Positions 3,387 to 30,731 of a DNA stretch of 41,843 nucleotides are shown here, in pieces (within the stretch, counting starts at the first letter, position 1; the number at the start of each line of letters is the position of its first letter). A model generated the notes under the pieces. That model ran no database searches, had not been told where the DNA came from, and saw nothing but the letters and a program-made list of their open reading frames with translations. This DNA comes from a virus: positions 1 to 41,843 of the IMG/VR virus record IMGVR_UViG_3300036830_000036. One strand, given 5' to 3'. The translations under genes and the position numbers were made by a program.

Positions 3387-3961
3387 TTGTCGAAGGTGAA
3401 AATCGGGTAGGAGAGAAGGTTCTGGCCGGCATTGATGAAGGCCGAGACGTCGCCGACAATTGTCGAACCGATGCTCACGGCCAGCACGTAGAAAAGTCCC
3501 GCGGTCAAGGTGGCCTGAAAGATGACATTGCCGTTCACCATCCATACGGCGATCGGGGGCGAGACCGTGTTGTCTATCGCCACACCGATGACTTGCCGCT
3601 CCGGCGTAACTTGAAGGGCTGGGGTGTACGATCCTGAGATCGATGCGCCATTGTTGTAGACCGCAGCCTCCGTCGGTCGATAACCCCACGAGGTTGCTTC
3701 CTCGCCAACGTACATGCTGAGTGAAGATTTCGCCCCAGCCACGCCGACGCTGCACAGATTCGCAAGCCCCGCCGCTGGTTGCGACACGCTATAGAACTGA
3801 CACTCGAAGCACGAGACGCCAGCCGCTTGCGCCAACGTCCCGAACACCGCGCGCTCGATATCGCAGACGTCCGTCGTGGTGACGACGAGATTGCCTTGGT
3901 CGAGTGTGAGGCTCGGACCGAGACGGTGCGGGTCGAACGTGGCGAGTATCTTTGTGGTCAC
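3383..3961 (-). CDS. SPRY/B30.2-like tail-associated protein
   Basis: A 192-aa protein. It shows the pattern of phage SPRY-domain proteins: a Gly-rich SVGVAGAKSSLSMYVGEE segment, SWGYRPTEAAVYNNG, then VIGVAIDN and an IAVWMVNG strand. SPRY folds are beta sandwiches used for binding proteins or glycans, so a receptor-recognition or tail-decoration role is likely. It overlaps the upstream adhesin gene and the downstream hub gene by four bases each, so the three are probably translated together and assembled on the same structure. Confidence 0.6.
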   Translation of the reverse strand: MTTKILATFDPHRLGPSLTLDQGNLVVTTTDVCDIERAVFGTLAQAAGVSCFECQFYSVSQPAAGLANLCSVGVAGAKSSLSMYVGEEATSWGYRPTEAAVYNNGASISGSYTPALQVTPERQVIGVAIDNTVSPPIAVWMVNGNVIFQATLTAGLFYVLAVSIGSTIVGDVSAFINAGQNLLSYPIFTFDK

Positions 3962-6255
3962 GTTCCAAACAATCCGCAGGCTTCCGCGAAATCGGCCGCA
4001 TCGTTTGCCGTCAATGCCGACGTGAAAAACGCGACGTGGCCGATCATTCCGTTAGCCCCGAGCGTGCCGTCATAGTTGTTGGCGATGAAGCTGTTGACCG
4101 TTGAGCCACCCGCGGGTTCCGTCGTATAGGTTTTGGTGAGAAGCGGGATGCCGTTGTAATACCAGTCGATTGTTTTCGCGCTCGCGTTTTTGACAATCAG
4201 GATGGAATAAACCTTCATCACAGCCTGATCGCCCGTGAATGTCGTTAGCCGGTCGACGCCGGCGCCGCTTTCCCACAATACATTCGGCTTGCTGCCAGAG
4301 GCGGTAGAGATATAGGGCAAAAATTGTACGTTAGCTACCTCTGTTTCACCGGCTGCCGTCATCGCCATCAGAATGTTATTGCCAGCCGGTGCATCCTGCG
4401 TGCGTCGGTAAACGCAATGGAAGGAGTAACTGCCAGTAAGCGGCGGTGTCAACCCGAGCGTTCCCGAACGGCTGATGCTGTCCGTTCCCGTTAATGTTTG
4501 CGGCACCAACAGATAATTGTCCGAGTCGTACTGTGATTGGAACAACCGTCCATAGCCGCAGTGAATGGAGCCGTTCGTATTGGTGACAGTGAAATTGAGT
4601 CCATTCCCCGATGAATCGACGAGGCTCGTCGCGCCGGCTGCTTCGTTACATTTTAGATACAGCAGCGGACTTTGGGCGAGAATCTTTGTCGACAGATCGC
4701 CGGATTTACGGCCCAAGCGGTATTCGTCCCAACCCGATGCGTTCGGGGCAACTGACATAACCGGTGTGTCCGTTGCGATATAAATTGAACCGGTCGGTCC
4801 TGTAGCGCCACGCGATGCGTACAAGCCTTCACTGACATTGGCGCTTCCCGATGGCCCAGTGGGACCGATTGCTCCCGTAGCACCCGTCGGCCCCGCTGGG
4901 CCGGTGCTCGACTCGCCGAGAATGTCGAAATTCGTCCCGTTGTAAACGAGATCGACCGTGCTCACTGCTGCGAGATAGCCGATGGGTGGACCGAGCCCGT
5001 TGAACAGAACCGTCTTCGCGCCGAGGCTGTCGGAGTCAAGCGTTACCGTCGTGCTGGTATTCGCGTTCGTGAACTTGACCGCAACAAGTTGTCCCGTCGT
5101 GTAGCTCGAAAGGCCGAGCGTGACAGCGTAAGTGTTCGTGCCGGATGCTACACCGTAGGGAGTTCCGCCCCCGCTACTACCGGCTGGAATGTCGACGGTC
5201 GCGATACCGTCCGTCACTGAAACGGTCGGGCTTGAAGTCCCCGTGAAATTGTAAGCAAGGATATTGGGATCGCCGATCGTCGTTCCGTTCTGCTGCACGG
5301 ACTGCTGCGCGTTTGCGTTCAGGAAAACCAATACGCCCTGCGCAACGGTGATAGTCCCGCCGAGTGCGTCCTTTCCGCCGACCTCAAGCAATGCTCCATT
5401 CGGATAACCGCCCGAATAAGAAATCGGAAACTGCGTCAGAGTGCCTGTGACTTCGCCGGTTTGTGGATTGACGGAAAGACCGAGGGAACTTACGGAGCCG
5501 AATTTTTCTTCCAGATGATAGGGGCCAAGGCCACCCGTAATCGTGAGCGTCGCAGAATACGGGATACCAAGGTACAAGGGCGGCAGATAGGATGACGGGC
5601 CTCCGGTAGTTCCGGGTTGGTCGCCGAGATTGTCGAAATCTGCGCGTGGCGCGGCGTATACATCCAGCGTTACGGGAATGGAAATGCTGTCGCCGGTCCC
5701 GCTATCGCTGACCGTGATCGCAACCGGATAATCGCCTGCAGTACTAGCGGCGACCGTGCCACTTAAAACACCGGATGACGTATCAATCGAAAGGCCAGTC
5801 GGCAGCGTGCCCGTGCAACCCCAAGTCAAGGTGCCCGTGTAGCCTGTGACGGAAAACGTGTAGCTGTACGCCACCAGTTCTTCGGCTGGCAGCGGAGTGT
5901 TTGCGACCGGCACGAGATCATGGTTCACATCGATCTCGAAATTGCTCTCGAAGATCGTCGTCGTGGAATCCTCGCACGCGGCGATGAATTCGACTTGCCC
6001 CGCAGTCGTTGGCGTGCCAGTGATGAATCCGGTCGCCGAATCGAGCGAGAGTCCAGTCGGCAAAGACCCGGAAGCGATGGAGTACGCATAAGTCGGTGTT
6101 CCGCCTTGCGCCACGAACGCAAGCATACCGGCGGCGATGGCGACGCCTACTTTGATGGGGAGTATCACGGGGTTGGCCTGTAGTCGAAGGGTGAGCGGAT
6201 TGTCGCCCCCGGCAACGAGGGTGACAGCGAGATTGCGGCGGATATTGGTCGGCAT
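3958..6255 (-). CDS. Tail adhesin with Ig-like, collagen-like and LamG-like regions
   Basis: A 765-aa protein. About residues 45-310 contain repeated putative-Ig (He_PIG-type) modules with the hallmark phrases SGSLPTGLSLDSATGFITG and GTLPTGLSIDTSSGVLSG, and a third diverged copy. A beta-rich linker follows, then a collagen-like G-X-Y run near residues 448-485 (GPAGPTGATGAIGPTGPSG, and later GATGPTG). About residues 520-765 look like a concanavalin/LamG-like lectin domain. This is the architecture of a trimeric tail spike or side fibre with a sugar-binding tip. It starts one base after the tape-measure stop, so it is expressed with the core tail genes. Confidence 0.7.
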   Translation of the reverse strand: MPTNIRRNLAVTLVAGGDNPLTLRLQANPVILPIKVGVAIAAGMLAFVAQGGTPTYAYSIASGSLPTGLSLDSATGFITGTPTTAGQVEFIAACEDSTTTIFESNFEIDVNHDLVPVANTPLPAEELVAYSYTFSVTGYTGTLTWGCTGTLPTGLSIDTSSGVLSGTVAASTAGDYPVAITVSDSGTGDSISIPVTLDVYAAPRADFDNLGDQPGTTGGPSSYLPPLYLGIPYSATLTITGGLGPYHLEEKFGSVSSLGLSVNPQTGEVTGTLTQFPISYSGGYPNGALLEVGGKDALGGTITVAQGVLVFLNANAQQSVQQNGTTIGDPNILAYNFTGTSSPTVSVTDGIATVDIPAGSSGGGTPYGVASGTNTYAVTLGLSSYTTGQLVAVKFTNANTSTTVTLDSDSLGAKTVLFNGLGPPIGYLAAVSTVDLVYNGTNFDILGESSTGPAGPTGATGAIGPTGPSGSANVSEGLYASRGATGPTGSIYIATDTPVMSVAPNASGWDEYRLGRKSGDLSTKILAQSPLLYLKCNEAAGATSLVDSSGNGLNFTVTNTNGSIHCGYGRLFQSQYDSDNYLLVPQTLTGTDSISRSGTLGLTPPLTGSYSFHCVYRRTQDAPAGNNILMAMTAAGETEVANVQFLPYISTASGSKPNVLWESGAGVDRLTTFTGDQAVMKVYSILIVKNASAKTIDWYYNGIPLLTKTYTTEPAGGSTVNSFIANNYDGTLGANGMIGHVAFFTSALTANDAADFAEACGLFGT

Positions 6256-10837: not shown

Positions 10838-10861
10838 AAAAATGCCCCTAATGGGGCATTT
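10838..10861 (-). terminator. Intrinsic terminator between truncated GIY-YIG gene and tape measure
   Basis: Perfect 9-bp stem AAATGCCCC / GGGGCATTT with a four-base loop. Read leftward it is followed by TTTTT shared with the stem end. The stop codon of the GIY-YIG frame lies in the loop. Confidence 0.75.
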
Positions 10862-11111
10862 GTGAATTTGTATCCGGAACAATCTCTACGATATAAAATT
10901 TCAATACACCTTCTGGATGTTTATTGAAGCGCTGCTGCAAATGTCTGCTGTGATGCTTCCCGGCTTTCAATTCTTTAATGTGACAACGCCAGCGGTCACG
11001 AACATTGCTTGACGAACCGATATAGAACTTGTCGAGGAACGTGATCTTATAGATCGCTGACACTTTAGAACTGTCAAGCTCAGGCATTACGATAGAATCG
11101 TTATCAGCCAT
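10848..11111 (-). pseudogene. Truncated GIY-YIG nuclease (homing endonuclease remnant)
   Basis: 87 aa from ATG 11111, with GAGG upstream. It has the GIY-YIG core: YKITFLDKFYIGSSSNVRDRW, then the H-I-K-E-L and H-H-S-R-HLQQRF segments. Intact GIY-YIG domains continue to a conserved metal-binding glutamate (ExxxI/W context) roughly 15-20 residues further on. Here the frame stops just after FYIVEIVPD with a terminator-derived tail SQMPH, so the catalytic Glu is missing. It is probably an inactive remnant inserted between the tail chaperones and the tape measure. Translation may still occur because the start signal is intact. Confidence 0.75.
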
Positions 11112-11140
11112 TTCAGACCTCACTTGTCTGCTGTGGTTAG

Positions 11141-11868: not shown

Positions 11869-12408
11869 TTAACCGTAGGTGTTTGCGATCACTTCGCCTT
11901 TCACGGACAGGACCGGGAAACCGGAACCCTGCAGCGACAGGTCGGCGCGGATGACGTCGTTGTCGGCATATTTGATCTGGAACTTGCTGATGTAGCAGTC
12001 CTGCAGAAACCCGGTACGGTTCCAATGTTTCGGCGATGCGGTCTGCGGAGGGACCAACGCGCCGGCGACAACGGTCGGCGCAGCCGTCGCATCGCTATTG
12101 CCGACGTAGAACTGCGTATCCTTCGCTGTGCCGCTCGCTTGCGCGGTGAACAATTTAATCAACGCCTGATGGTTGACGTTCGTCGGATCGAATACGACTT
12201 CGCCGGACGATTCACCGGGGGCAACGCGGCCGCCCGTGTTCTCGTCTGCGCCGGCCGAATCCATATTCGACTTGTCGATCTTCTTGCGCGCACCGTTCAG
12301 CGGAGTGAAGCCCTTGAGCTGATCACAGGGCAACACGACATGCGGCGAAACACTGGTATCCATGACGTAGACTTTTGTGCCTACGGTTGGTACGGACTTG
12401 GTGGTCAT
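11869..12408 (-). CDS. Major tail tube protein
   Basis: 179 aa. It has the pattern of lambda gpV/HK97-type tube proteins: an N-terminal strand (GTKVYVMD), a long loop with DKSNMDSAGADENTGGRVAPGE, then EVVFDPTNVNHQALIKLF and C-terminal strands (GSGFPVLSVKGEV). It sits just before the tail chaperones. An intrinsic terminator lies between it and the upstream glycosyltransferase gene, and a U-less hairpin follows it, so its message may be independently adjusted. AGGAA-type ribosome binding sequence lies upstream of ATG 12408. Confidence 0.88.
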   Translation of the reverse strand: MTTKSVPTVGTKVYVMDTSVSPHVVLPCDQLKGFTPLNGARKKIDKSNMDSAGADENTGGRVAPGESSGEVVFDPTNVNHQALIKLFTAQASGTAKDTQFYVGNSDATAAPTVVAGALVPPQTASPKHWNRTGFLQDCYISKFQIKYADNDVIRADLSLQGSGFPVLSVKGEVIANTYG

Positions 12409-12511: not shown

Positions 12512-13315
12512 TCAACTTCCGCGAACCACTTGGCCGGCGTGTTCCCATGCCGCGCCGGAACGAATCTCCTCCATGTCGAACTGGCACCACGCCAATTCGT
12601 CGGCCCACGCTTGTCGCGCAGGTTCCGATTGAATCTCGAAATCATGCGCTGCAATGGGATAGACCATCGCTCCACGATCAATCGCAACGACCGGTTTCCC
12701 TTCGAGCATGGCATCAACCCCTGCATTGCTATTGAAGGTTACGGCGACGGCCGCGCCTTCCAAAGCCTGCGCCAGCGTTCCGCGAAGCGTCTCGCATCCC
12801 GGCACGGTTTGCTTCTGTCCATACTCGACCGCTATGGGATGGGGGCGATACCGCACGGGCAACCCGAAAACCTTCCACATCTTCGCGGCCATGCGCGTCG
12901 CCCATGACTGGAAATCCATGCGGTACAACGACGCATCGCCTTCGACTTGCCCGATCAGCAACGCATAATCGCCTTCCGGATTCCACGGTCTGAGCAGATC
13001 GTCGAAATACTTCCGGAACCGATCCGAATCTTTCGCAGGCGCAAACTCGGCCCGCCCGTTCAGGCCATTCCAGCCGAAGGACGTCCATGCGTGCCGATCG
13101 CCGATGTAGCCGTGCTCCATGACGAGCACGCGCTTACCTGCTGCCGCCAAGGGATCCGCGATGCGCCATCCCCAACAGGCGCAAATATCGGACTTCACGG
13201 CGTCCCAAGGGGCAATCGTGCGGTTCGGCAGCCCATGCCTCGTCAATCCAGTCGCGAGCGCATCCGCGTGTGCAACGTGATGCGCCATGCTCGGCTCGGC
13301 GATGATGTCGATCAT
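12512..13315 (-). CDS. KpsC/KpsS-like capsular polysaccharide glycosyltransferase
   Basis: 267 aa starting at ATG 13315, overlapping the methyltransferase stop by one base (TGATG). The C-terminal half has the hallmarks of the Capsule_synth family: YRPHPIAVE, then EGAAVAVTFNSNAGVDAMLEG, then KPVVAIDRGAM and YPIAAHD. These resemble the donor-nucleotide side of GT-B-like Kdo transferases. It is the last gene of a block of four putative glycan enzymes within the head-tail genes. It may attach sugars to virion proteins or alter host surface glycan. The substrate cannot be read from the sequence. Confidence 0.65.
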   Translation of the reverse strand: MIDIIAEPSMAHHVAHADALATGLTRHGLPNRTIAPWDAVKSDICACWGWRIADPLAAAGKRVLVMEHGYIGDRHAWTSFGWNGLNGRAEFAPAKDSDRFRKYFDDLLRPWNPEGDYALLIGQVEGDASLYRMDFQSWATRMAAKMWKVFGLPVRYRPHPIAVEYGQKQTVPGCETLRGTLAQALEGAAVAVTFNSNAGVDAMLEGKPVVAIDRGAMVYPIAAHDFEIQSEPARQAWADELAWCQFDMEEIRSGAAWEHAGQVVRGS

Positions 13316-13896
13316 CAGACGCACCTCACCACGAGCGTATGCCCATCCTTGCCGGGAATGACATCGGATTGCGTGTCGTTTTGCTTGCACCACTCCACGA
13401 CGTTCCAACCGCAGGATTTCAGCAGCGATTCGAACTCGTGCGGCCGATAGTGCCGGAAGTGGAACGTCTGCCCGACATACGGCCAGATTTCCTCGTTCGG
13501 AACGCTCGCGAGGAGTATTCGACATTCCCGCCGCAAGGTCAGCAATAACGGACGCGGGTCGACGACATGCTCGATTGTTTCGAACGAGACCGCCGCTTCA
13601 AATCCCTCGATTTGATCCAGCGCGCAGGCATCGGCGACACGATATTGAGCGCGTTTGTGCGCGTAATGCGCTCGTGCGAACTCGATGGACTCCTCTGAAA
13701 TATCAGCGCCCGTCGCATCATGTCCCGCTTGCGCTAGCATCTTCGTGCCGTAACCAATGCCGCAGGCGATATCCAATACGCGCGAGGCTTCCGGCAATGC
13801 CTTCGCGGCCCATGCATATCTTGCGCGATGGTCGTACCTGATCCCCGTCAGCGTCGTCGCAACTTGCCGCTCTCCAGATGAAAGGCTGCGGTTCAA
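13315..13896 (-). CDS. Class I SAM-dependent methyltransferase
   Basis: 193 aa. TTG 13896 overlaps the preceding stop by four bases (TTGA) and keeps the whole domain. Motif I is VLDIACGIGYGTKML at about residue 40, motif II ATGADISEESIEFAR (acidic end binding SAM ribose), then VADACALDQIEGFEAAVSFE and TIEHVVDPRPLL. This is a Methyltransf_11/23-type small-molecule or glycan methylase; DNA-methylase motifs are absent. Being directly coupled to the KpsC-like gene, it probably methylates a sugar or an intermediate in the same pathway (inference). Confidence 0.75.
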   Translation of the reverse strand: MNRSLSSGERQVATTLTGIRYDHRARYAWAAKALPEASRVLDIACGIGYGTKMLAQAGHDATGADISEESIEFARAHYAHKRAQYRVADACALDQIEGFEAAVSFETIEHVVDPRPLLLTLRRECRILLASVPNEEIWPYVGQTFHFRHYRPHEFESLLKSCGWNVVEWCKQNDTQSDVIPGKDGHTLVVRCV

Positions 13897-14066
13897 ATCT
13901 TGACCTCGACATTGATGAAATGAACCACGACGCGCGGCACATCCTGCGGCGTGATCGTAATTTCGATCTTCGAAATGCCTGGAACAATCTCGCCAGTCTT
14001 GAGATCGATCATCCGATGTTGACCGCCCAACCTCTGAGCCTCTATTCGATAACGCGGCTCTTTCAT
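13893..14066 (-). CDS. Small conserved-looking phage protein, unknown function
   Basis: 57 aa from ATG 14066, with a near-perfect AGGAGG site and an ATGA overlap with the upstream paralogue gene. It is a compact beta protein: MIDLKTGEIVPGISKIEITI, then PRVVVHFINVEVKI. Similar small beta proteins occur in siphophage head-tail regions without known function. It may be a structural accessory rather than part of the glycan pathway. Confidence 0.6.
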   Translation of the reverse strand: MKEPRYRIEAQRLGGQHRMIDLKTGEIVPGISKIEITITPQDVPRVVVHFINVEVKI

Positions 14067-14632
14067 AAAACCTCCTGAATTCTTGCGCGGGGAAAACACT
14101 TCAATCCAGTCTCGCGACTGCAATTGATAACTTCGACGCCTTCGGATTTCAGGTCCGCGGCGAGGCGGTCAAAATGATGCTGCCGTGCCGAGAAGTCCGT
14201 CGCATCCTGCAATCCCTGCGGATGATGGCCGAACCAATGGCCCAGACCCTTCATGTCGTAGCCGAGCAGCAGGATTCGATCCGGCGAGCGATGGAACGCG
14301 AAATTGATGCCTTGATAACCGCCGTTCTCGCCTTCGTGAATCAATGCTGGATCACACGCAAGTCCTTTCCCCGGCGCGCTGCGAATCCAATTCAGATTCC
14401 AACGCTGTGCGGCATCGGGATCGCGCGTCCAGCGTTCACCCGCGAAACTGCGCGAGGCTTCCTCGTGCAATTTCCACCAGCCATAGTCGCAAGCCCAGAG
14501 CCAATCAGCCCACGGCGCAATGCGATAACCGTCGTTGACGACGAGAACGCGCGCCTTGTCGCAGCAGTATTCGACGTCTTCGGCAACCAATGAAGGACCG
14601 CTCGCAACGCAAACTATCGTTTCCGCATTCAT
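14063..14632 (-). CDS. Sialyltransferase/MptE-like (DUF115-type) protein, paralogue B
   Basis: 189 aa from ATG 14632, which overlaps the tail-terminator stop by ATGA. It shares the same ordered motifs with the 16533-17204 protein: CVASGPSLV, VVNDGYRIAPWADWLWACD, GENGGYQGINFAFH, RILLLGYDMKG, HWFGHHPQGL and a C-terminal VINCSRETGLKCFP. The GPS...N...G..A...RI.L.G.D order is that of GT42 sialyltransferases and MptE/DUF115 proteins, which act on nucleotide-linked or glycan substrates. It heads the coupled set with the small beta protein, methyltransferase and KpsC-like transferase. Confidence 0.6.
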   Translation of the reverse strand: MNAETIVCVASGPSLVAEDVEYCCDKARVLVVNDGYRIAPWADWLWACDYGWWKLHEEASRSFAGERWTRDPDAAQRWNLNWIRSAPGKGLACDPALIHEGENGGYQGINFAFHRSPDRILLLGYDMKGLGHWFGHHPQGLQDATDFSARQHHFDRLAADLKSEGVEVINCSRETGLKCFPRARIQEVL

Positions 14633-15033
14633 CGACTCTGCCAAAGACTCCAGTCACTCGATGAACGGTACCGCCGAGTATCGGGGTCGAAATCATTGCC
14701 GTTGAAACCGATGCACTGCGCGCCGAGACCGTAGGTTGTCGGCACCGTGGAATCTTCCAACGCCGCACGGATGGCCTCCTCGATCGCCTGCGCGTTGTCG
14801 AAATCGAGCGACCAACAATCAATCTGAATGCGCTTGTTGTCGGCCGGCGCACGTTCGAAGACATTGGCCGGAGAACCCGCGATCGTTTGATAGGTCGCCC
14901 CCGGCAGCACATCGTCTTGATTGATCCTGCCCGCGGGATAGAACCGCACAATGACCGGCGAACCGCTCCCGATCAAAGCCTGTACGCCCGCGTTCGTCGA
15001 AACGACGGAATATAGGGCCGATTCAATACTCAC
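14629..15033 (-). CDS. Tail terminator / tail completion protein (DUF3168-like)
   Basis: 134 aa starting at GTG 15033 (GTGA overlap with the upstream gene). The N-terminal helix IESALYSVVSTNAGVQALIG, then VIVRFYPAGRINQDDVLPGATYQTIAG, then IQIDCWSLDFDNAQAIEEAIRAAL is the usual layout of DUF3168/gp17-like proteins that cap the tail tube and join it to the head. Gene order after the gp10-like protein supports this. Confidence 0.75.
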   Translation of the reverse strand: MSIESALYSVVSTNAGVQALIGSGSPVIVRFYPAGRINQDDVLPGATYQTIAGSPANVFERAPADNKRIQIDCWSLDFDNAQAIEEAIRAALEDSTVPTTYGLGAQCIGFNGNDFDPDTRRYRSSSDWSLWQSR

Positions 15034-15506
15034 GACGAAACCTCCGCTGCCGCCGCTTGAACGCCATCGGCGAGCGTTACGCGAAATACTTCCAGAGCCG
15101 CGTTTTTCTGAGATTCAAATGCAGGCCGCAGGAAAGGGCGCGCGCTCATCTTTGCCGTGCCAAATTCGAGGAAACGCCAATAAAACGCTTCGTCTTGAAG
15201 TTGCACGCCAGACTCGCCGCCATTCGCTTTGCGAAGGATTCGTAGCACTTTTTTTATCTTCGTATTCAGGCGCAGCTTTCGGACCCCGATCGCATAATGC
15301 GCCGTATTGCCATCGCTTGAACGCTTGAAGATGGCGATCTTCGATTTCAGCAAACCCGTTCGAACTGGTGCGCGTGAGATTGCGTCGGCTTCAATCAAGG
15401 CTGCAGCGGTGAACGTGGCGCGCTTGAGATATTTTTGAGCGAGCACGGTCGGAAAGTCCTTGAGGGCTTTCCCCAGTTCTTCGAGGCCATCAACGCGAAC
15501 TTCCAT
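15030..15506 (-). CDS. HK97 gp10-like head-tail joining / tail completion protein
   Basis: 158 aa. It begins MEVRVDGLEELGKALKDFP, a hallmark start of HK97 gp10-type proteins, and later has RAPVRTGLLKSKIAI and YWRFLEFGTAKMSARPFLRPAFE, the strongly conserved core of that family. It lies between the head-closure and tail-terminator genes, as in HK97-like phages. The 15030 end overlaps the next start by four bases. Confidence 0.88.
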   Translation of the reverse strand: MEVRVDGLEELGKALKDFPTVLAQKYLKRATFTAAALIEADAISRAPVRTGLLKSKIAIFKRSSDGNTAHYAIGVRKLRLNTKIKKVLRILRKANGGESGVQLQDEAFYWRFLEFGTAKMSARPFLRPAFESQKNAALEVFRVTLADGVQAAAAEVSS

Positions 15507-15509
15507 TAT

Positions 15510-15854
15510 TCAGCCCTGATTGAGTCCGGCCATAGCGAATATCGACATGAAACGACCGCGTTTCTGATTGTTCGGGATGCCGGTTATATCCAGCGGCTGT
15601 CCGTTCCATATTGCGCGCATGTTCGAATTCAAGTCGCCGCGCCAGCGAACCCAGATGGTGTATTCGTTGCCGGTCAATTCCTGCTGCGCGAGGAAACGTT
15701 CGCTCGCCTTCGTTGCGTCCACGCAAGCCCAGATCGTCGCGTAATCGTTCCATGTAATTTGCGGCGCACCCGTACCGCTCGGCGTCGTGACCTTGACCTG
15801 AAACGTCACACGCTGATCGAGGCGGCGCGCATTGGTGCGGCTGAGAATGCTCAT
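15510..15854 (-). CDS. Head-closure / head-tail adaptor protein (SPP1 gp16-like)
   Basis: 114 aa. RRLDQRVTFQ near the start, then WNDYATIWACVDATKASERFLAQQELTGNEYTIWVRWR and ITGIPNNQKRGRFMSIFA match the phage head-tail adaptor (head-closure) family of beta-barrel proteins. It starts at the one-base stop/start overlap (TGATG) with the connector gene. Four bases separate it from the gp10-like gene. Confidence 0.82.
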   Translation of the reverse strand: MSILSRTNARRLDQRVTFQVKVTTPSGTGAPQITWNDYATIWACVDATKASERFLAQQELTGNEYTIWVRWRGDLNSNMRAIWNGQPLDITGIPNNQKRGRFMSIFAMAGLNQG

Positions 15855-16531
15855 CAGAAGTTAAACGAGCGGTAGGACGTCAAGCAACCGTCGATGCCAT
15901 CGCCCAGCATCTTCCACTGATCCGGCGTCTGCGGGTCGTAATGCTGCCGGATGTGTAGCTTCATCGCGCGCTTGATGCTGACCGGGATGTTCGCCGCATA
16001 GTCGTATACCGGCGGACTGCCCGTCACCTTCGGCGTATAGCCCGCGTCGTAGGCGATCTGCACCGCATCTTCGCGGAGATAGGTCGGGGGCCAGAAGTTA
16101 CCGATCAGAAGCTCGATCGTCGCAGCCTGCTCGTCGGAATGCACGAGATACAGCGTCGGGTCAAGCGTCTGCAAAGCATTGTTCGTGTCGTAATACTGAA
16201 CCGACGTCAGCGCGAGAAGATCGGGGCGCAGTAAACGAATATGCTGCGGCTTCAAATCGTAGCCGTTCGGCTCGCTCCACAACGTCTCCTGCGTGCGATA
16301 CCAAACGCGATCGTAGGGAAAGCGCGAATGCGTGAGCAGGATCGATTCCTTGCACAGCGCGCGCCGCGTATATCGCTGAACGAAATCCGTCGCGTCGGCA
16401 ATCAGTTCGACGAGCAATACGTCGTCCGGATTCGTAGGCGGCGAACCGCTCGCATCCAAGCGCAAATCGAGATAGCAGTCGGACGGTACTAGAACCGGTT
16501 GTGATGCTGGCGTTGTGATTTGAATCCGCAT
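15854..16531 (-). CDS. Head-tail connector protein (gp6-like)
   Basis: 225 aa from ATG 16531, with GAGGATT upstream; the longer frame would overlap the preceding gene. It has the gp6/YqbG-like helical plan: LLVELIADATDFVQRYTRRAL near residue 45, a central beta part with LLRPDLLALTSVQYYD, and a C-terminal SIKRAMKLHIRQHYDPQTP helix. These proteins bind the portal and extend the DNA channel. It begins two bases after paralogue A. Confidence 0.78.
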   Translation of the reverse strand: MRIQITTPASQPVLVPSDCYLDLRLDASGSPPTNPDDVLLVELIADATDFVQRYTRRALCKESILLTHSRFPYDRVWYRTQETLWSEPNGYDLKPQHIRLLRPDLLALTSVQYYDTNNALQTLDPTLYLVHSDEQAATIELLIGNFWPPTYLREDAVQIAYDAGYTPKVTGSPPVYDYAANIPVSIKRAMKLHIRQHYDPQTPDQWKMLGDGIDGCLTSYRSFNF

Positions 16532-16532
16532 T

Positions 16533-17204
16533 TCAATCCTCTTTACCGAATGCCAGTTCCATGCGTTTTTCCAAACTCTGATTTTCACTTACGCGCTCGT
16601 TCCAGAGCGCATCGTCGAGCCGCATCATCGGGAAACACGTCAGCGCCGAATCAGGCGTGCAGTTAACGACGTCGACGCCCATTTCCGGGAGCAACGGCGC
16701 GAGCTTTTCGAACTCGGGAATGAATAGCTTCCGCTGGACGTCCGAAATAGCGTCGGCCAAACCGTGCGGATGCTCGCCGAACCAGTGCTGGCCGTGCATG
16801 TCGAACCCGCACAGCAGGATTCGCCTAGCGCCAGCGTGTATCGCGACATGCAACGCCTGATAGCCCGAATTGTTGCCCGTCCGGATGAAACTTGGATCCG
16901 GATCGAATCCACTCTTCCCGCTTACCTGTAGCTGCAGCACGCAATCCCACGGCACAACATCGCGGGTTATTTTCAGACCTTCGAATTTAAGTGCCTGCTG
17001 TGCATGATAGGCCCACCATTTCGCATCCGCCGCGTAAAGCGCATCGGCCCAAGGTGCGAGCCGATGCGTATCGTTGACGACAATCGTTACGAGTTTACTT
17101 TTTCGAACCTTGTTTGCCACCTGCTGATTCATCGACGGGCCGCTTGCCAGTATCGCCACCGTCCTTCCCGGCCACAGCTTCGGCACTGTCCACAGCGTTG
17201 TCAT
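16533..17204 (-). CDS. Sialyltransferase/MptE-like (DUF115-type) protein, paralogue A
   Basis: 223 aa from ATG 17204, preceded by GAGG; a GTG nine bases earlier is possible but overlaps the Shine-Dalgarno. The domain starts at once (TVAILASGPSMN), then VVNDTHRLAPWADALYAADAKWW, RTGNNSGYQALHVAIHAG, RRILLCGFDMHGQHWFGEHP and VDVVNCTPDSALTCFP. Motif order and many identities match the 14063-14632 protein, so they are paralogues. The first 110 bases overlap the 95-aa gene upstream. A glycan-active role is inferred from the fold pattern; no substrate is visible. Confidence 0.6.
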   Translation of the reverse strand: MTTLWTVPKLWPGRTVAILASGPSMNQQVANKVRKSKLVTIVVNDTHRLAPWADALYAADAKWWAYHAQQALKFEGLKITRDVVPWDCVLQLQVSGKSGFDPDPSFIRTGNNSGYQALHVAIHAGARRILLCGFDMHGQHWFGEHPHGLADAISDVQRKLFIPEFEKLAPLLPEMGVDVVNCTPDSALTCFPMMRLDDALWNERVSENQSLEKRMELAFGKED

Positions 17205-17385: not shown

Positions 17386-17838
17386 TTACACCGATACGAT
17401 CTGAACGACCGTTGCCGGATCGAGTAGCGACGCAGGATCATTGAACGCGTCGAAACCGTCGAGCGTTGCCGCGACGAGCGAAGCGGCCGTTCCGACCGTG
17501 ACGATCATTGCGACGTAGCCATAGCCGTTTGCGGTATCGAGCGAATCGGTGTTCAGATTGATGCACGCGATTTTACCGTCGCCGGACGCTTTGAGAATCT
17601 GCGTAATGGCCGCACCCGTGATGTCCTTCGCTGTGCCGCCACCGGACGTTTTGGCTTGCTGCAATTTGAAGTCGACGGTTGCAGACGAGCCGAGAACGCC
17701 CGTGTATAGCGTGGCGAGAAAACGACGGAACCCTGCGGCACTGACCCATACCGCACTCGATGCGGAGCTGGAGGAGATGGGAGCGACGACAGCGCATCGG
17801 CTAACACGCTCGGTTGGAAGTGAAGTTGTATTGTTCAT
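17386..17838 (-). CDS. Post-capsid structural protein, possibly head decoration
   Basis: 150 aa from ATG 17838, with AAGGA seven bases upstream. It follows the major capsid gene. FLATLYTGVLGSSATVDFKL, QQAKTSGGGTAKDITGAAIT and YGYVAMIVTVGTAASLVAAT are typical of small beta proteins found just after capsid genes in many siphophages. No enzymatic motif is seen. A head-decoration or connector accessory role is plausible from position. Confidence 0.6.
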   Translation of the reverse strand: MNNTTSLPTERVSRCAVVAPISSSSASSAVWVSAAGFRRFLATLYTGVLGSSATVDFKLQQAKTSGGGTAKDITGAAITQILKASGDGKIACINLNTDSLDTANGYGYVAMIVTVGTAASLVAATLDGFDAFNDPASLLDPATVVQIVSV

Positions 17839-17882: not shown

Positions 17883-19307
17883 TTACGAGCGAGTGGCGAG
17901 CGTGACGAAAGCGCCGCGTGGATTGCTGTTGTTTGCCTGCGCGATGGATGAGGTATACCACGGCTGACCGCCGACGCGCAGAATGAAGCGGAACGCCGTG
18001 ATGTCGTAATCGAACCACAAATGGATCGAGACATCGGAGCGGATGCCGCCGGTCTTGACGATCGATAGGTATTGCGTCCAGTCACCGAGGATAATATCGC
18101 CGACCGTGCCGAGCGCCGAACACGATTGCAGCGGAATCACCGGGCGACCGAGCAGCGTGCTGAATGGCGAGCCGGACAAACCATTCGGGGGCAGATACAC
18201 CGGAACAACCGTGCCGCTACCCTGATTGGGGAACGCAAGCTGCATCAGTTGCACTTCGACGTCGGGTTGGATTGCCCACACTGCATTCGCACGCAGATTC
18301 GGGGCGAGCCGCGTCCACATTTTGATAATGTTCTGGAACACGATGGTCGCAGCGACCTGCGCAGACTCTTCCGCGACGGAAACTGTCGCCGCCGAATTCA
18401 GCACGCCCAATGGCATACCCGCACCAGTGCCGCGGATCAAAGCATCGTTCACCTTGAAATTGATCTTGTCCGGCACCTTGCGGTTGACGTAGTTCGACAT
18501 CGACGGCGCATCGTCGAGCAGTTCGTCGGTGAGCGGCACGAGCGCGGTCAGCTTGTTGAGCTTAACGGTCGTTTCCTGCAACTGCGGCTTGGATTGGCCG
18601 AGCTGTGCAGCCTCGCCTTCCCACGCTGCTTGCAAGCCGCCTGTCGTCTGCCACGGCGTCGTTTCGTCCTTCGGGAAGGTGAAACTATTGCTCGAACTCG
18701 TCTGTTGATCCGTGCGGCTGAGAAGCTGATCCTCGCCCATGACCTTAATCATGATCTGGGTGCGGAAGTCGGGAGGAACAGCGAAGCCGCCATCAGCGCC
18801 CACGCCTTCCGAACCGAGCGACGTCGGAGCCGCGTTGGCGATCAAGCGCGGATCGATCGCGCCGCCTTTGGCGCTGGAACGCATGACCGCGTTCAGGAAC
18901 TCGCCGGCGGACCGGAATCCCCACTTATTCGGATCGGAGTCGCGCGGCGTTGCGAAGGTGCGCGTTTTCGGACGCGTCGGTTCGTCGGTGGCGTTGTTCT
19001 GCGGGGCATCGTCGGATGCGGTTTTACGCGCGGCCATTGTCGGATTGATCTTGGCCTTCATCTCGTCGATGCGCTCGCGGCGCGCGATCTCGGCTTCGCA
19101 ACCTTCGAAGGCGTTGGAAATCTGTTCGACTTCCTTCGACTCGTCTTCGCTCAACGGGCGATTTTCTGCATCCGCACGCGCCTGAATGTTGACGGCGTTG
19201 CTATGCAGTTCGGTGAGGCGAGCGTGAAGCTCGTCGATGGTCACAGGCTTGGCGTCATTGAAGAACAGGCCAGCCGCAACCGCAACACTCAAAGAGTTCG
19301 GTTTCAT
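17883..19307 (-). CDS. Major capsid protein (HK97 fold)
   Basis: 474 aa from ATG 19307 with AAGGA upstream; the much longer open frame upstream is the shadow of the protease gene. Residues 1-110 form a helical, charged scaffold-like (delta) domain (IDELHARLTELHSN, EQISNAFEGCEAEIARRERI). The shell domain follows from about 130 (FLNAVMRSS, GADGGFAVPPDFRTQIMIKV), with LVPLTDELLDDAP in the middle and DYDITAFRFILRVGGQPWY near the end, all typical of HK97-type capsids. The adjacent ClpP-like protease probably removes the N-terminal domain. Confidence 0.92.
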   Translation of the reverse strand: MKPNSLSVAVAAGLFFNDAKPVTIDELHARLTELHSNAVNIQARADAENRPLSEDESKEVEQISNAFEGCEAEIARRERIDEMKAKINPTMAARKTASDDAPQNNATDEPTRPKTRTFATPRDSDPNKWGFRSAGEFLNAVMRSSAKGGAIDPRLIANAAPTSLGSEGVGADGGFAVPPDFRTQIMIKVMGEDQLLSRTDQQTSSSNSFTFPKDETTPWQTTGGLQAAWEGEAAQLGQSKPQLQETTVKLNKLTALVPLTDELLDDAPSMSNYVNRKVPDKINFKVNDALIRGTGAGMPLGVLNSAATVSVAEESAQVAATIVFQNIIKMWTRLAPNLRANAVWAIQPDVEVQLMQLAFPNQGSGTVVPVYLPPNGLSGSPFSTLLGRPVIPLQSCSALGTVGDIILGDWTQYLSIVKTGGIRSDVSIHLWFDYDITAFRFILRVGGQPWYTSSIAQANNSNPRGAFVTLATRS

Positions 19308-19372
19308 TTCGGAAATCCTTATTTCGGGAATTAAATCCGCCTCTCGGCGGCTCGTGGGATGACGGCTGGCCG

Positions 19373-20062
19373 TCAGTTCTGCGTCGGGCTGGCCCTTCGC
19401 AAATTCTTGCTCATGCCCATTTTGGCGATGAGAACGTTCGTCGCGCGCGACTTCTCGGCGAGCGGCGCAGGTGTATTTTTGAACTTGTTCAGCAGAGCGA
19501 ACGCCATGTCGGCAGGCTCCATCGTCTGTTCTTCGATCTCGTCGACGAAACCCTGCGCTTTCGCGTCCTCGGCTTTCATCCACGTTTCCGCCGCCATCAT
19601 GTCGGAAATCTTCGCCTTGTCGCCTTTCGTGCGGGCGACGTAGGTATCCAACAGCGTATCGCGGATCTGATCGAGCGTGCCCGCAGTAGCGCGCATGTCT
19701 TCGGCCGTGCCGACGCACATGCCCCACGGATTATGGATCATCATCATGGCGTTGGGCGCGCACTTGATGACGTCGCCAGCCATGCAAATGATCGAGGCGA
19801 TCGAGGCGGCGATGCCGTCGATGTGAACCGTCTTCTTCGCGGCGATGCGTTTCAATTGGTTGTAGATCGCGACACCGTCGAAAACGGAGCCGCCCGGACT
19901 GTTGACGTAGATATCAAGCGTGTCGACCGCGCCGAGTTCCTTCACGGCATCTGCAAAACTCTGCGCCGTGATGCCGCCGAACCAGCCGTCACCGATGTCC
20001 TGATAGATGTAAAGCTCGCCGGCCTTGTTGCCTTTGGCTTTCGCGAAAAAGGTAAGTTTCAT
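19373..20062 (-). CDS. ClpP-like head maturation protease
   Basis: 229 aa from ATG 20062, overlapping the portal stop by one base (TAATG). It shows the phage ClpP plan: DIYVNSPGGSVFDGVAIYNQL, then HIDGIAASIASIICMAGD with the nucleophilic Ser, and MMMIHNPWGMCVGTAEDMR with the catalytic His. The order portal - protease - capsid is the standard HK97-type set. It should cleave the scaffold domain of the capsid precursor inside the prohead. The C-terminal 40 residues are disordered-looking. Confidence 0.92.
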   Translation of the reverse strand: MKLTFFAKAKGNKAGELYIYQDIGDGWFGGITAQSFADAVKELGAVDTLDIYVNSPGGSVFDGVAIYNQLKRIAAKKTVHIDGIAASIASIICMAGDVIKCAPNAMMMIHNPWGMCVGTAEDMRATAGTLDQIRDTLLDTYVARTKGDKAKISDMMAAETWMKAEDAKAQGFVDEIEEQTMEPADMAFALLNKFKNTPAPLAEKSRATNVLIAKMGMSKNLRRASPTQN

Positions 20063-28323: not shown

Positions 28324-28664
28324 ACGACCGCCCTCAATCGTTCGTTCTGTAACTGTAGCAAATGATCGTCGCTGCCGTAATGCTCGTGAAAGGTTCGGGA
28401 ACCGTTGGCGAGGCTTGGCCCCATCTGATACCACGATTCGATGAACTGAATCGGGCAAGCGCGGTGGTGCCACGGACATAGGCCGATCGTGAATTCGTGA
28501 CCGCGGCGGATATTGCCGCTTTTCAGGTGATGGATTTCAGGCGCGTTGTAACCGTTGCCGTCGATGTGACAAGCCAAACATCCATCGAGCTTGATCTCGA
28601 CGAAACGGCGCTTCTGCGCGAACGTCGCTGGTTTGCCGCGGCCTCGTGGGGTTTTCGGAATCAT
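28320..28664 (-). CDS. Ref-like RecA-dependent nuclease
   Basis: 114 aa with the P1 Ref pattern: GCLACHIDG, APEIHHLKSGNIRRGHEFTIGLCPWHHRACP, and a C-terminal MGPSLANGSRTFHEHYG. The HNH-type core with Cys pairs and H-H is typical of the Ref family, which cuts DNA at RecA-made D-loops. It lies in ATGA overlap with both the HNH-AP2 gene upstream and RusA downstream. It probably supports recombination together with RusA and the NinB-like protein. Confidence 0.85.
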   Translation of the reverse strand: MIPKTPRGRGKPATFAQKRRFVEIKLDGCLACHIDGNGYNAPEIHHLKSGNIRRGHEFTIGLCPWHHRACPIQFIESWYQMGPSLANGSRTFHEHYGSDDHLLQLQNERLRAVV

Positions 28665-29173
28665 ACGTCACAATACCGTTGGCGATGGCTGCCGTGGTTC
28701 GGATGAAAACCGTAGATTATCTCAGCGTGTTTTCGCGCCGCCGCGCATTCCGCTTTATTTGAGAACACTCCGAGATGAATTGTTTCGCCATCTACGCATA
28801 TTTTCCCAACCCATGCGTTCAAGTCGTCGCGCCAATAAACGCCACAGATGCCTGACGTATTATTAGATCTCAAACGCTGGTTTCTTCCGTTGCTCGTGTT
28901 GTCTGCCGCATTCAGATTCTTCCATCGATTGTTATCTCTATCGCCGTCATCATGATCTATTTGAAAAGTCGGGAAGGCTCCAGTCATGTAAAGCCACGCA
29001 AGACGATGTGCCCTGTACCTGCACTTGCAAACGCCGATATACCTATAGCCTGCCGACTTTATATCGCCGACGACTGAACCTGCTGCTGAGCGCCGCTGAT
29101 GAATCAGCCGAGTGAAAACGCCGGTCGTGGGATCGTAATGAAGATGCTTTTTCAATTCAGCTTGCGTAATCAT
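28661..29173 (-). CDS. HNH-AP2 homing-type endonuclease
   Basis: 170 aa. HNH core: YRAHRLAWLYMTG, FQIDHDDGDRDNNRWKNLN, followed by the NTSNGRNQRLRSNNTSGICGVYW segment and an AP2-like DNA-binding part (WVGKICVDGETIHLGVFSNKAECAAARKHAEIIYG). This is the usual structure of phage free-standing homing nucleases. It sits between the NinB-like and Ref-like genes with four-base start/stop overlaps on both sides, so it is translated in the operon. It is a mobile element or has been adopted as part of the recombination set. Confidence 0.88.
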   Translation of the reverse strand: MITQAELKKHLHYDPTTGVFTRLIHQRRSAAGSVVGDIKSAGYRYIGVCKCRYRAHRLAWLYMTGAFPTFQIDHDDGDRDNNRWKNLNAADNTSNGRNQRLRSNNTSGICGVYWRDDLNAWVGKICVDGETIHLGVFSNKAECAAARKHAEIIYGFHPNHGSHRQRYCDV

Positions 29174-29631
29174 TTTAGATCAGCATCCCTCTTTTCCTTC
29201 CAAAATTTATCTGGGTCTGGAATGTAAACGCCGCCCTCTGACGCCTTGCGCCGAATATGCTCGACGAAATCCCAGAACGTTTTCCCGTCGAGCGTGTCTT
29301 TGTCGCCGTTCTCGTCGGTTGTAGTGGTGCGGACCGGGCGCGAGACCTTCTCGCCGTTCGGTTTGGTGTGAATGTAGCGCCCGAAAAATTCCATCAGGTA
29401 GAACTCGTGCAGGTCTTCGTCAGTGAATCCCAACTCGCGCACGAGGTACGGATATACGACCGACCAAAGGTACTGATTCGAGTCCAGCGTGCGCGGCTTG
29501 CGGTAGCGCACAATGCTGATCTTCCACGCGAACGAATCGTCGAGCGTTGCGATTTCCTTCGAGACGTTCTGCATAACGCCGTCTCGGGTCGAGTCGCCTT
29601 TCGGGTGCAGGATGTAGGTGATGGGCTTCAC
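29170..29631 (-). CDS. NinB-like recombination protein
   Basis: 153 aa. KISIVRYRKPRTLDSNQYLWSVVY resembles the conserved LDQN-W helix of NinB/YbcN proteins; YIPDPDKFWKEKRD at the C-terminus fits the family end. NinB-type proteins bind ssDNA and help load RecA-like recombinases. Coupled by ATGA to the methyltransferase upstream and to the HNH gene downstream. The family assignment is moderate because the middle part is diverged. Confidence 0.6.
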   Translation of the reverse strand: MKPITYILHPKGDSTRDGVMQNVSKEIATLDDSFAWKISIVRYRKPRTLDSNQYLWSVVYPYLVRELGFTDEDLHEFYLMEFFGRYIHTKPNGEKVSRPVRTTTTDENGDKDTLDGKTFWDFVEHIRRKASEGGVYIPDPDKFWKEKRDADLK

Positions 29632-30731
29632 GAGGTCACGCTTGCGAAGAGTGGTGCGTCGCCAGTGATGCGTCGCTCGGCGATAGCGGCGTAATCAGGA
29701 TTCAATTCGATGCCGATGCAATTGCGCTGCAGGCGATCAGCAACGAGTCCGGTTGTGCCTGCACCGAAGAATGGATCCAGAACAGTCCCGTCAACGGGAC
29801 ATCCGGCTTTAATGCACGGCTCAATCAAGTTCGGCGGGAATGTGGCGAAATGCGCTTCCTTGAAACCTGTCGTCGAAACGTTCCAAACAGATTTCTTATT
29901 GGCCGTAAAGTCACCGCTAGCGTCGGCGTTGCGCTTGTCCGCTGTGAATCCACTACCGCCCTGTGTCGGATGCCATTCTTTGCCGCTTTGTAAACGCGTA
30001 TCGGAACATGGATTGTTGCCGCCAAACTTGACAGCCTTCATGTTGCCGTTTGTCTTTGCGGGCACACGATCGCTGCCAACTTGCGATTCCACGTCTTGTG
30101 CGACTCTGGCGACGCTGGAAGGTTGCGCGGGTTCACGAATGGCTTTCTGATCGTAAAAATAATTCTTGGACTTACTGAGCAAGAAAATATATTCGTGTGA
30201 CTTCGTGCAACGATCAGTCACGCTTTCCGGCATCGGATTCGGCTTGTGCCAGATGATGTCCTGACGCAGATACCAGCCCTCGGCGCGAAGCGCGAAGGCG
30301 AGCATCCACGGAATGCCGATAAGATCCTTTGCCTTGATTCCGTCGAACGTCTTACGCGTGACATTTGTCACGGCCGCCTCGCGCGCTGTCTTGCCCGTTC
30401 CGTACAGGCAACCTACGGACTGCGATCCTGCGTTCGTGGCTTGCTTACTTGAGCCAGGATCGGGGTTGCCGCCTTTGCCGCTGCCCGCATAGCTATCGCC
30501 AATATTGAGCCACAAAGTACCGTCGCCGCGCAAAACGCGCCTGACCTCGCGGAACACCTCGACCATGCCGGCGATGAACGCCTCCGGCGTTTCTTCGAGT
30601 CCCATCTGTCCGTCGACACCGTAGTCGCGCAGGCCGAAATACGGCGGTGATGTTATGCAACAGTGGATGGATTGATCGGGCAGTGTCTTGAGGACATCGC
30701 GGCAATCGCCTTGAATTATGCGCGTGCTCAA
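29628..30731 (-). CDS. DNA methyltransferase (TSPPY type)
   Basis: 367 aa. Catalytic motif IV CCITSPPYFGLRDYG at about residue 30, AKDLIGIPWMLAFALRAEGW and HKPNPMPESV in the middle, and motif I VLDPFFGAGTTGLVADRL near the C-terminus, with NCIGIELNPDYAAIAERRI. This is a beta-type amino methylase; TSPPY is common in N4-cytosine enzymes, but N6-adenine cannot be excluded. No restriction partner is seen, so it is an orphan that probably protects phage DNA from host restriction. It overlaps the helicase gene by ATGA. Confidence 0.92.
   Translation of the reverse strand: MSTRIIQGDCRDVLKTLPDQSIHCCITSPPYFGLRDYGVDGQMGLEETPEAFIAGMVEVFREVRRVLRGDGTLWLNIGDSYAGSGKGGNPDPGSSKQATNAGSQSVGCLYGTGKTAREAAVTNVTRKTFDGIKAKDLIGIPWMLAFALRAEGWYLRQDIIWHKPNPMPESVTDRCTKSHEYIFLLSKSKNYFYDQKAIREPAQPSSVARVAQDVESQVGSDRVPAKTNGNMKAVKFGGNNPCSDTRLQSGKEWHPTQGGSGFTADKRNADASGDFTANKKSVWNVSTTGFKEAHFATFPPNLIEPCIKAGCPVDGTVLDPFFGAGTTGLVADRLQRNCIGIELNPDYAAIAERRITGDAPLFASVTS

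Follow-up and report, generated by a model that had tools for sequence, protein, structure and literature searches.

The DNA analysed here, hereafter the window, is the 41.8 kb (41,843 nucleotides) IMG/VR virus record IMGVR_UViG_3300036830_000036, from an uncultivated virus of bacteria. Its minus strand carries a siphovirus-type operon with genes for terminase, portal, capsid, a capsid-adjacent protein, connector, closure, a gp10-like protein, tail terminator, tail tube and tape measure. Four enzyme genes, also on the minus strand, interrupt this operon between the capsid and the tail-tube genes, just where the original prediction, made from the letters of the DNA, had put them. They are predicted to encode two GT42/MptE-like proteins (A1 and A2), an S-adenosylmethionine (SAM)-dependent methyltransferase and a KpsC-like transferase, and they are accessory, inserted extras in the head-tail operon. 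Their joint function is probably the glycosylation of a virion protein with a cytidine monophosphate (CMP)-activated ulosonic acid of the host, such as CMP-3-deoxy-D-manno-oct-2-ulosonic acid (CMP-Kdo), accompanied by methylation.

The gene order is portal, capsid, the capsid-adjacent gene (17386–17838), A1, connector, closure, HK97 gp10-like, tail terminator, A2, a small open reading frame (ORF), methyltransferase, KpsC-like and tail tube. The enzyme genes and the small ORF are the following:

16533–17204, minus strand: A1, GT42/MptE-like putative CMP-sugar glycosyltransferase, 223 residues (phrog_4603, E=7e-40; PF01973, E=9e-5, below the cut-off; AlphaFold2 predicted local distance difference test, pLDDT, 96; CstII profile, E=2.4e-4)
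14063–14632, minus strand: A2, paralogue of A1, 189 residues, overlapping the tail terminator gene by 4 bp (phrog_4603, E=2e-39)
13893–14066, minus strand: small ORF, 57 residues, with 4-bp overlaps with the A2 stop and the methyltransferase start (no family match in Pfam or PHROG)
13315–13896, minus strand: predicted class I SAM-dependent methyltransferase, 193 residues, TTG start, possibly active in sugar O-methylation (PF13649, E=9e-14; PF08241, E=2e-13)
12512–13315, minus strand: predicted KpsC-like retaining beta-Kdo-type transferase, 267 residues (Foldseek against the PDB, best E=2.4e-9; profile against KpsC, E=2e-7; motifs)

The tail terminator gene overlaps A2 by 4 bp, A2 overlaps the small ORF by 4 bp, the small ORF the methyltransferase gene by 4 bp and the latter the KpsC-like gene by 1 bp, and because of these overlaps A2, the small ORF, the methyltransferase and the KpsC-like ORF are taken as real genes, probably translationally coupled to the tail terminator. 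This agrees with the start/stop overlap with assembly genes that had been predicted, and the enzyme genes are in this way coupled to an assembly gene and lie outside the early and lysogeny regions. Upstream, the KpsC-like frame stays open as far as 13525, and the ATG at 13315 is favoured by the overlap and by the homologues. Hydropathy analysis detected no membrane segment in the four enzyme proteins. A blastn search with the 4.75 kb enzyme region against phages gave no match, and the nearest phage by terminase was PAJU2 (59%).

Families of the transferases and the methyltransferase

With Pfam alone the KpsC-like protein gave E=0.11, a weak match, but a 39-member profile of its family reached KpsC in the PDB (E=2e-7). 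Its AlphaFold2 model (pLDDT 96.3) was compared with the PDB by Foldseek, and ranks 1–17 were all KpsC/WbbB beta-Kdo transferases (best E=2.4e-9, TMq 0.48–0.62), a modelled fold that would place the protein among the retaining beta-Kdo transferases (GT99/GT107/GT140 group). This group is defined by a QXXXD motif, in which Asp is the covalent nucleophile and Gln binds the Kdo carboxylate (PMC12887879, PMC10148158), and its (K/R)XHP motif binds CMP (PMC12887879). Both motifs are found in the window protein, as Q123-V-E-G-D127 and R157-P-H-P160, and QXXXD and RXHP are kept in all 14 members of its close subfamily. Trp48 and Glu67 align with Trp42 and Glu66 of KpsC, and His68 replaces Asp67; Trp42, Glu66 and Asp67 are invariant in KpsC (PMC10148158), so that the absolute conservation expected of KpsC proper (GT107) is broken by the histidine. 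KpsC also has two glycosyltransferase (GT) modules and a C-terminal membrane-anchoring region, whereas the window protein has one module and a maximum 19-residue hydropathy of 0.91. Compared with KpsC (GT107), WbbB (GT99) and KrkA (GT140), the protein has in common the GT-B-like fold, both motifs and the equivalents of Trp42 and Glu66, and differs in being a 267-residue single module of a phage late operon, with His68 for Asp67 and no membrane segment found. That it is a retaining Kdo-transferase-like enzyme, but not KpsC itself, is well supported by sequence and model, and the KpsC/KpsS-like call of the original prediction is upheld by the profile search, the fold search and the catalytic motifs. 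Among the reported homologues of KpsC is a pseudaminic acid transferase (PMC12887879), and for this reason a CMP-ulosonic acid other than CMP-Kdo is possible as the donor of the window protein. In loci L035 (2190–5645), L065 and L062, KpsC-like paralogues stand in tandem arrays, lacking QXXXD and having GQRGIG-like or RPKP motifs in its place; by their sequences they are likely distinct subfamilies with different chemistry.

A1 and A2 are around 40% identical and both match phrog_4603 over its whole length (profile positions 1–174 of 178), in agreement with their prediction as paralogues. When a 27-member profile including the relatives from D3, P1, PAJU2, Eowyn, CcrColossus and S20 was compared with the PDB, CstII came first and made up all seven best matches, and the pterin kinase MptE appeared at E=0.94. 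With a 65-member A1 profile, ferritin constructs came out on top (E=5e-5); this match was rejected as a chance one, since the stretch includes a linker, belongs to another fold class and falls behind CstII with the broader profile. The single-sequence PDB search with A1 gave only chance-like matches, and a comparison of the A1 and KpsC-like proteins gave no support for a common ancestry. With the MptE-like family PF01973, A1 scored 23 bits against a gathering cut-off of 34.6 and A2 had no match, and 51 of the 65 A1 relatives matched it at E<=0.01 (best 1.4e-10). Among viral proteins, Foldseek with the A1 model found MptE-like and unnamed structures. The 65 relatives show high conservation, as expected of an enzyme, at the positions GPS, N44, D60, W63-W64, N112-S-G, G133-x-D135, H140 and N181. 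Both proteins therefore appear from their profiles as clear members of PHROG 4603 (labelled 'alpha-2,3-sialyltransferase'), whose nearest solved relative would be the GT42 sialyltransferase CstII, than which they are shorter. Their predicted activity is less certain than that of the KpsC-like protein: the GT42/MptE-like call stands on PHROG, on CstII as top PDB profile match and on the MptE-like viral structures, and did not find the same backing in the PDB fold search considered below.

The methyltransferase scored 52.4 bits against Methyltransf_25 (cut-off 27) and 51.1 bits against Methyltransf_11 (cut-off 21.2), and is, as far as its profiles tell, a class I SAM enzyme, as had been predicted; its nearest solved structures are generic small-molecule methyltransferases. 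A methyltransferase gene lies directly upstream of the KpsC-like gene also in L003, L012, L091, L092, L099 and L010. The last of these (MW202713, 4205–5613) is a podovirus in which a KpsC-like ORF without annotation stands beside the methyltransferase gene upstream of the terminase, near a TibC-like glycosyltransferase.

Recurrence of the insert and its relatives in known phages

At least 565 IMG/VR stretches contain relatives of A1/A2, and in L003, the closest relative among the matches listed, capsid, A1-like, connector, closure, methyltransferase, KpsC-like, gp10 and terminator genes form one operon, which argues that the insert is not due to chance. Three sets of loci were compared: 78 selected on the GT42-like gene, with many short contigs, 19 selected on the KpsC-like gene and 77 controls selected on the capsid-adjacent protein, the controls being retrieved with an alignment query, as a single-sequence search gave none. 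Structural genes lay within 5 kb in 67 of the 78 GT42-selected loci, and in 49, many contigs being short, the GT42-like gene was preceded by head genes and followed by connector/tail genes. All 19 KpsC-selected loci had connector/tail genes, and 17 of them a GT42-like gene. The enzyme genes occupy varying junctions (capsid/connector, closure/gp10 or terminator/tail tube), and a scan of 115 further ORFs near them gave Methyltransf_24 (12), GT2 (11), FkbM (9) and GT9 (4), together with GT-D, pyruvyl transferase and sulfotransferase. By contrast, none of the 77 control loci has a GT42-like gene, and their capsid, connector, closure, gp10, terminator and tail-tube genes are almost gapless, supporting that the enzymes are inserted extras. 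Between the last head gene and the terminator the median distance was 1.9 kb in the controls versus 4.7 kb in the enzyme loci (p=6e-16), in sets that also differ in phylogeny. The same absence from loci selected on the capsid-adjacent protein (0/77) led us to reject the idea that A1 depends on this protein as an obligate partner. The GT42-like family was rare in a sample of 289 genomes from the class to which the metagenome-assembled genome G001 belongs (three genomes at E<=1e-20), and sits there among phage structural or related genes. In the virus contig L002 (7373–9678), two tandem GT42-like genes are followed by a sulfotransferase-like and a methyltransferase-like ORF.

Part of this arrangement is found in known phages. 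The Pseudomonas phage D3 has a GT42-like gene, a gene of no assigned function and a methyltransferase gene (orf7-orf12-orf13) between its head and tail genes; Psp6 is arranged as D3 and PAJU2 has the same layout, so that these phages have in common with the window a GT42-like gene and a methyltransferase gene among head-tail connector genes. In P1 (pmgO/pmgP/pmgQ), pmgO belongs to the GT42-like family and lies near pmgQ, annotated as a glycosyltransferase. Unlike the window, neither the D3-like phages nor P1 were noted to have a Kdo-transferase-like gene, and D3 orf12 was rejected as a KpsC-like relative (hhalign probability 2.7%). Within the literature searched, the whole set is undescribed, as had been supposed, but this does not extend to the GT42-like family, already annotated in this position in the D3-like phages and present also in P1. 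The annotated start of D3 orf7 looks wrong, because the GT42-like match (L006, 4355–5073) runs in one open frame through orf6.5 and orf7, annotated as two overlapping genes; S20 looks similar. XacN1 also carries a GT42-like relative, and at least two glycoproteins were detected in this phage by proteomic analysis, with no enzyme assigned to them (PMC5852040).

Proposed virion glycosylation and alternative functions

The proposed function can be described as follows. The four enzymes would form an accessory glycan-modification set in the late head-tail operon, made in the cytoplasm together with the virion proteins. GT42 and Kdo-transferase types both use CMP-ulosonic acids, and A1, A2 and the KpsC-like enzyme would most likely do the same, the obvious donor being the CMP-Kdo pool of a host that we infer from the relatives to be Gram-negative and that would have CMP-Kdo available because such bacteria synthesise lipopolysaccharide (LPS). 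A short glycan might be placed or extended on a virion protein present in many copies, be it capsid, capsid-adjacent protein, tail tube or connector, and capped by the methyltransferase, and could hide or change the surface of the particle, for instance against adsorption-blocking factors, proteases or recognition. Virion glycosylation fits the data best because the transferases are soluble, probably use CMP-ulosonic acids, are made with virion proteins, are dispensable and variable in number, and stand beside sugar-type methyltransferases. The original prediction of virion sugar decoration holds to this extent, as the best explanation; donor sugar, acceptor, reaction order and benefit we infer from the genes.

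Several results weigh against it. Acceptor, sugar and product are all predictions from genes, and no protein-initiating transferase was identified. The crude sign of O-glycosylation, Ser/Thr enrichment, was not found in the capsid or tail-tube proteins of enzyme-bearing phages, whose capsid C-termini are if anything poorer in these residues (a weak comparison, as the groups differ in phylogeny), so that the idea of Ser/Thr-rich acceptor tails is not supported. Foldseek with the A1 model found nothing below E=1e-3 in the PDB. Of the 39 proteins in the wider KpsC-like family only 14 keep QXXXD, the other 25 being mostly tandem paralogues, and for this reason the wider family may differ in chemistry. 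The relatives in CcrColossus and phiNP adjoin tail or lysis genes, not connectors, and PAJU2 ORF010, the A1 relative, is annotated as 'structural protein'.

This last label, together with the 'putative morphogenetic function' of a P1 relative, could mean that catalysis has been lost in the GT42-like proteins, and perhaps also in the KpsC-like protein, and that they now serve as assembly or structural components. We find this rather unlikely, since control phages have the same head-tail genes without the GT42-like gene, the window KpsC-like protein keeps the catalytic and CMP-binding motifs, and GPS, N, NSG, GxD and H are strongly conserved over 65 A1 relatives. Moreover, P1 pmgO is non-essential, its knock-down leaving plating unreduced (PMC10695390). 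Another target for active enzymes would be the host surface, in such a way that nascent lipid-linked glycans of LPS or capsule are altered late in infection against progeny re-adsorption or superinfection. CstII acts on lipooligosaccharide and serotype-converting phages are well known, but genes for conversion are usually found close to attachment sites, with membrane proteins among their products, and those of D3 are separate from its GT42-like orf7. KpsC acts on capsule (PMC10148158); however, the four proteins have no membrane segment, and their genes, found at different junctions, are mostly inside the head-tail operon, making a host-surface target unlikely.

That the enzymes glycosylate modified bases of the phage DNA is highly improbable: DNA-modifying phage glycosyltransferases are well documented (PMC12619734), yet among the larger window ORFs scanned, in a record that may be a fragment, there was no hydroxymethylase or base-hypermodification gene, only an N6/N4 DNA methylase, and the enzyme genes are placed in the late operon. 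The enzymes might instead act on a small molecule or on components of host defence or translation, their place in the virion operon reflecting only late expression. Late operons often contain accessory genes whose function has nothing to do with the virion, but the recurrent company of many glycan-type enzymes argues for regarding such a target as quite improbable.

Virion glycosylation is in itself already known; the novelty lies in the combination of enzymes and in the position at which it recurs. In mycobacteriophages, capsid and tail tube are established to carry glycans attached by phage-encoded glycosyltransferases, according to sources citing Freeman 2023 (PMC12619734, PMC10877033, PMC11256854). 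In the F1 phage Maravista the transferases lie near the 3' end of the genome and not, as in the window, inside the head-tail operon. The recurrence of the insert suggests that phages frequently glycosylate their own particles. More tentatively, the insert may be a widespread, variable virion-glycan locus by which many tailed phages of Gram-negative bacteria attach Kdo or another CMP-ulosonic acid from the host to their capsid or tail and then methylate it. KpsC-type retaining transferases and GT42-like enzymes would there be combined within the head-tail operon, perhaps with a gene content comparable to that of bacterial O-antigen loci. If virion glycosylation is true, this modification, so far known mainly from mycobacteriophages, would be common among phages whose hosts are Gram-negative, and the gene set would differ between phages; a large PHROG family that now bears the label 'alpha-2,3-sialyltransferase' or 'morphogenetic' would gain a function, sugar-coated particles would be predicted for the model phages D3, PAJU2 and P1, and the Kdo-transferase group, which has been described from the synthesis of capsule and LPS, would be extended to phages.

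Other features of the window

The head and tail genes around the insert are listed below:

17883–19400, minus strand: major capsid protein, start approximate, true start within ORF 17883–19727 (phrog_10, E=8e-52)
17386–17838, minus strand: capsid-adjacent protein, putative decoration protein, positional neighbour and possible acceptor (phrog_28483, E=4e-32; adjoins the major capsid protein gene in enzyme-less control loci)
15854–16588, minus strand: head-tail connector/adaptor, true start likely the ATG near 16531 (phrog_442, E=1.5e-10)
15510–15854, minus strand: predicted head closure protein (position; family built from the ORF present in 78 related loci)
15030–15506, minus strand: predicted HK97 gp10-like protein (position; family built from the ORF present in 75 related loci)
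14629–15033, minus strand: tail terminator/tail completion gp17 (PF11367, E=1e-14; phrog_78)
11869–12408, minus strand: tail tube protein (PF16460, E=2e-27)

A homing-endonuclease-like ORF (10848–11123, minus strand; phrog_314, E=5e-12) lies between the tail assembly chaperone and tape measure genes, at the site where the frameshift product of the chaperone is usually encoded. Downstream of the tape measure gene, a large ORF (3958–6255, minus strand) with Ig-like (He_PIG) and laminin-G-like domains is perhaps a tail adhesin. The replication region contains the N6/N4 DNA methylase and an HNH endonuclease at 29628–30731 and 28661–29173, both on the minus strand.

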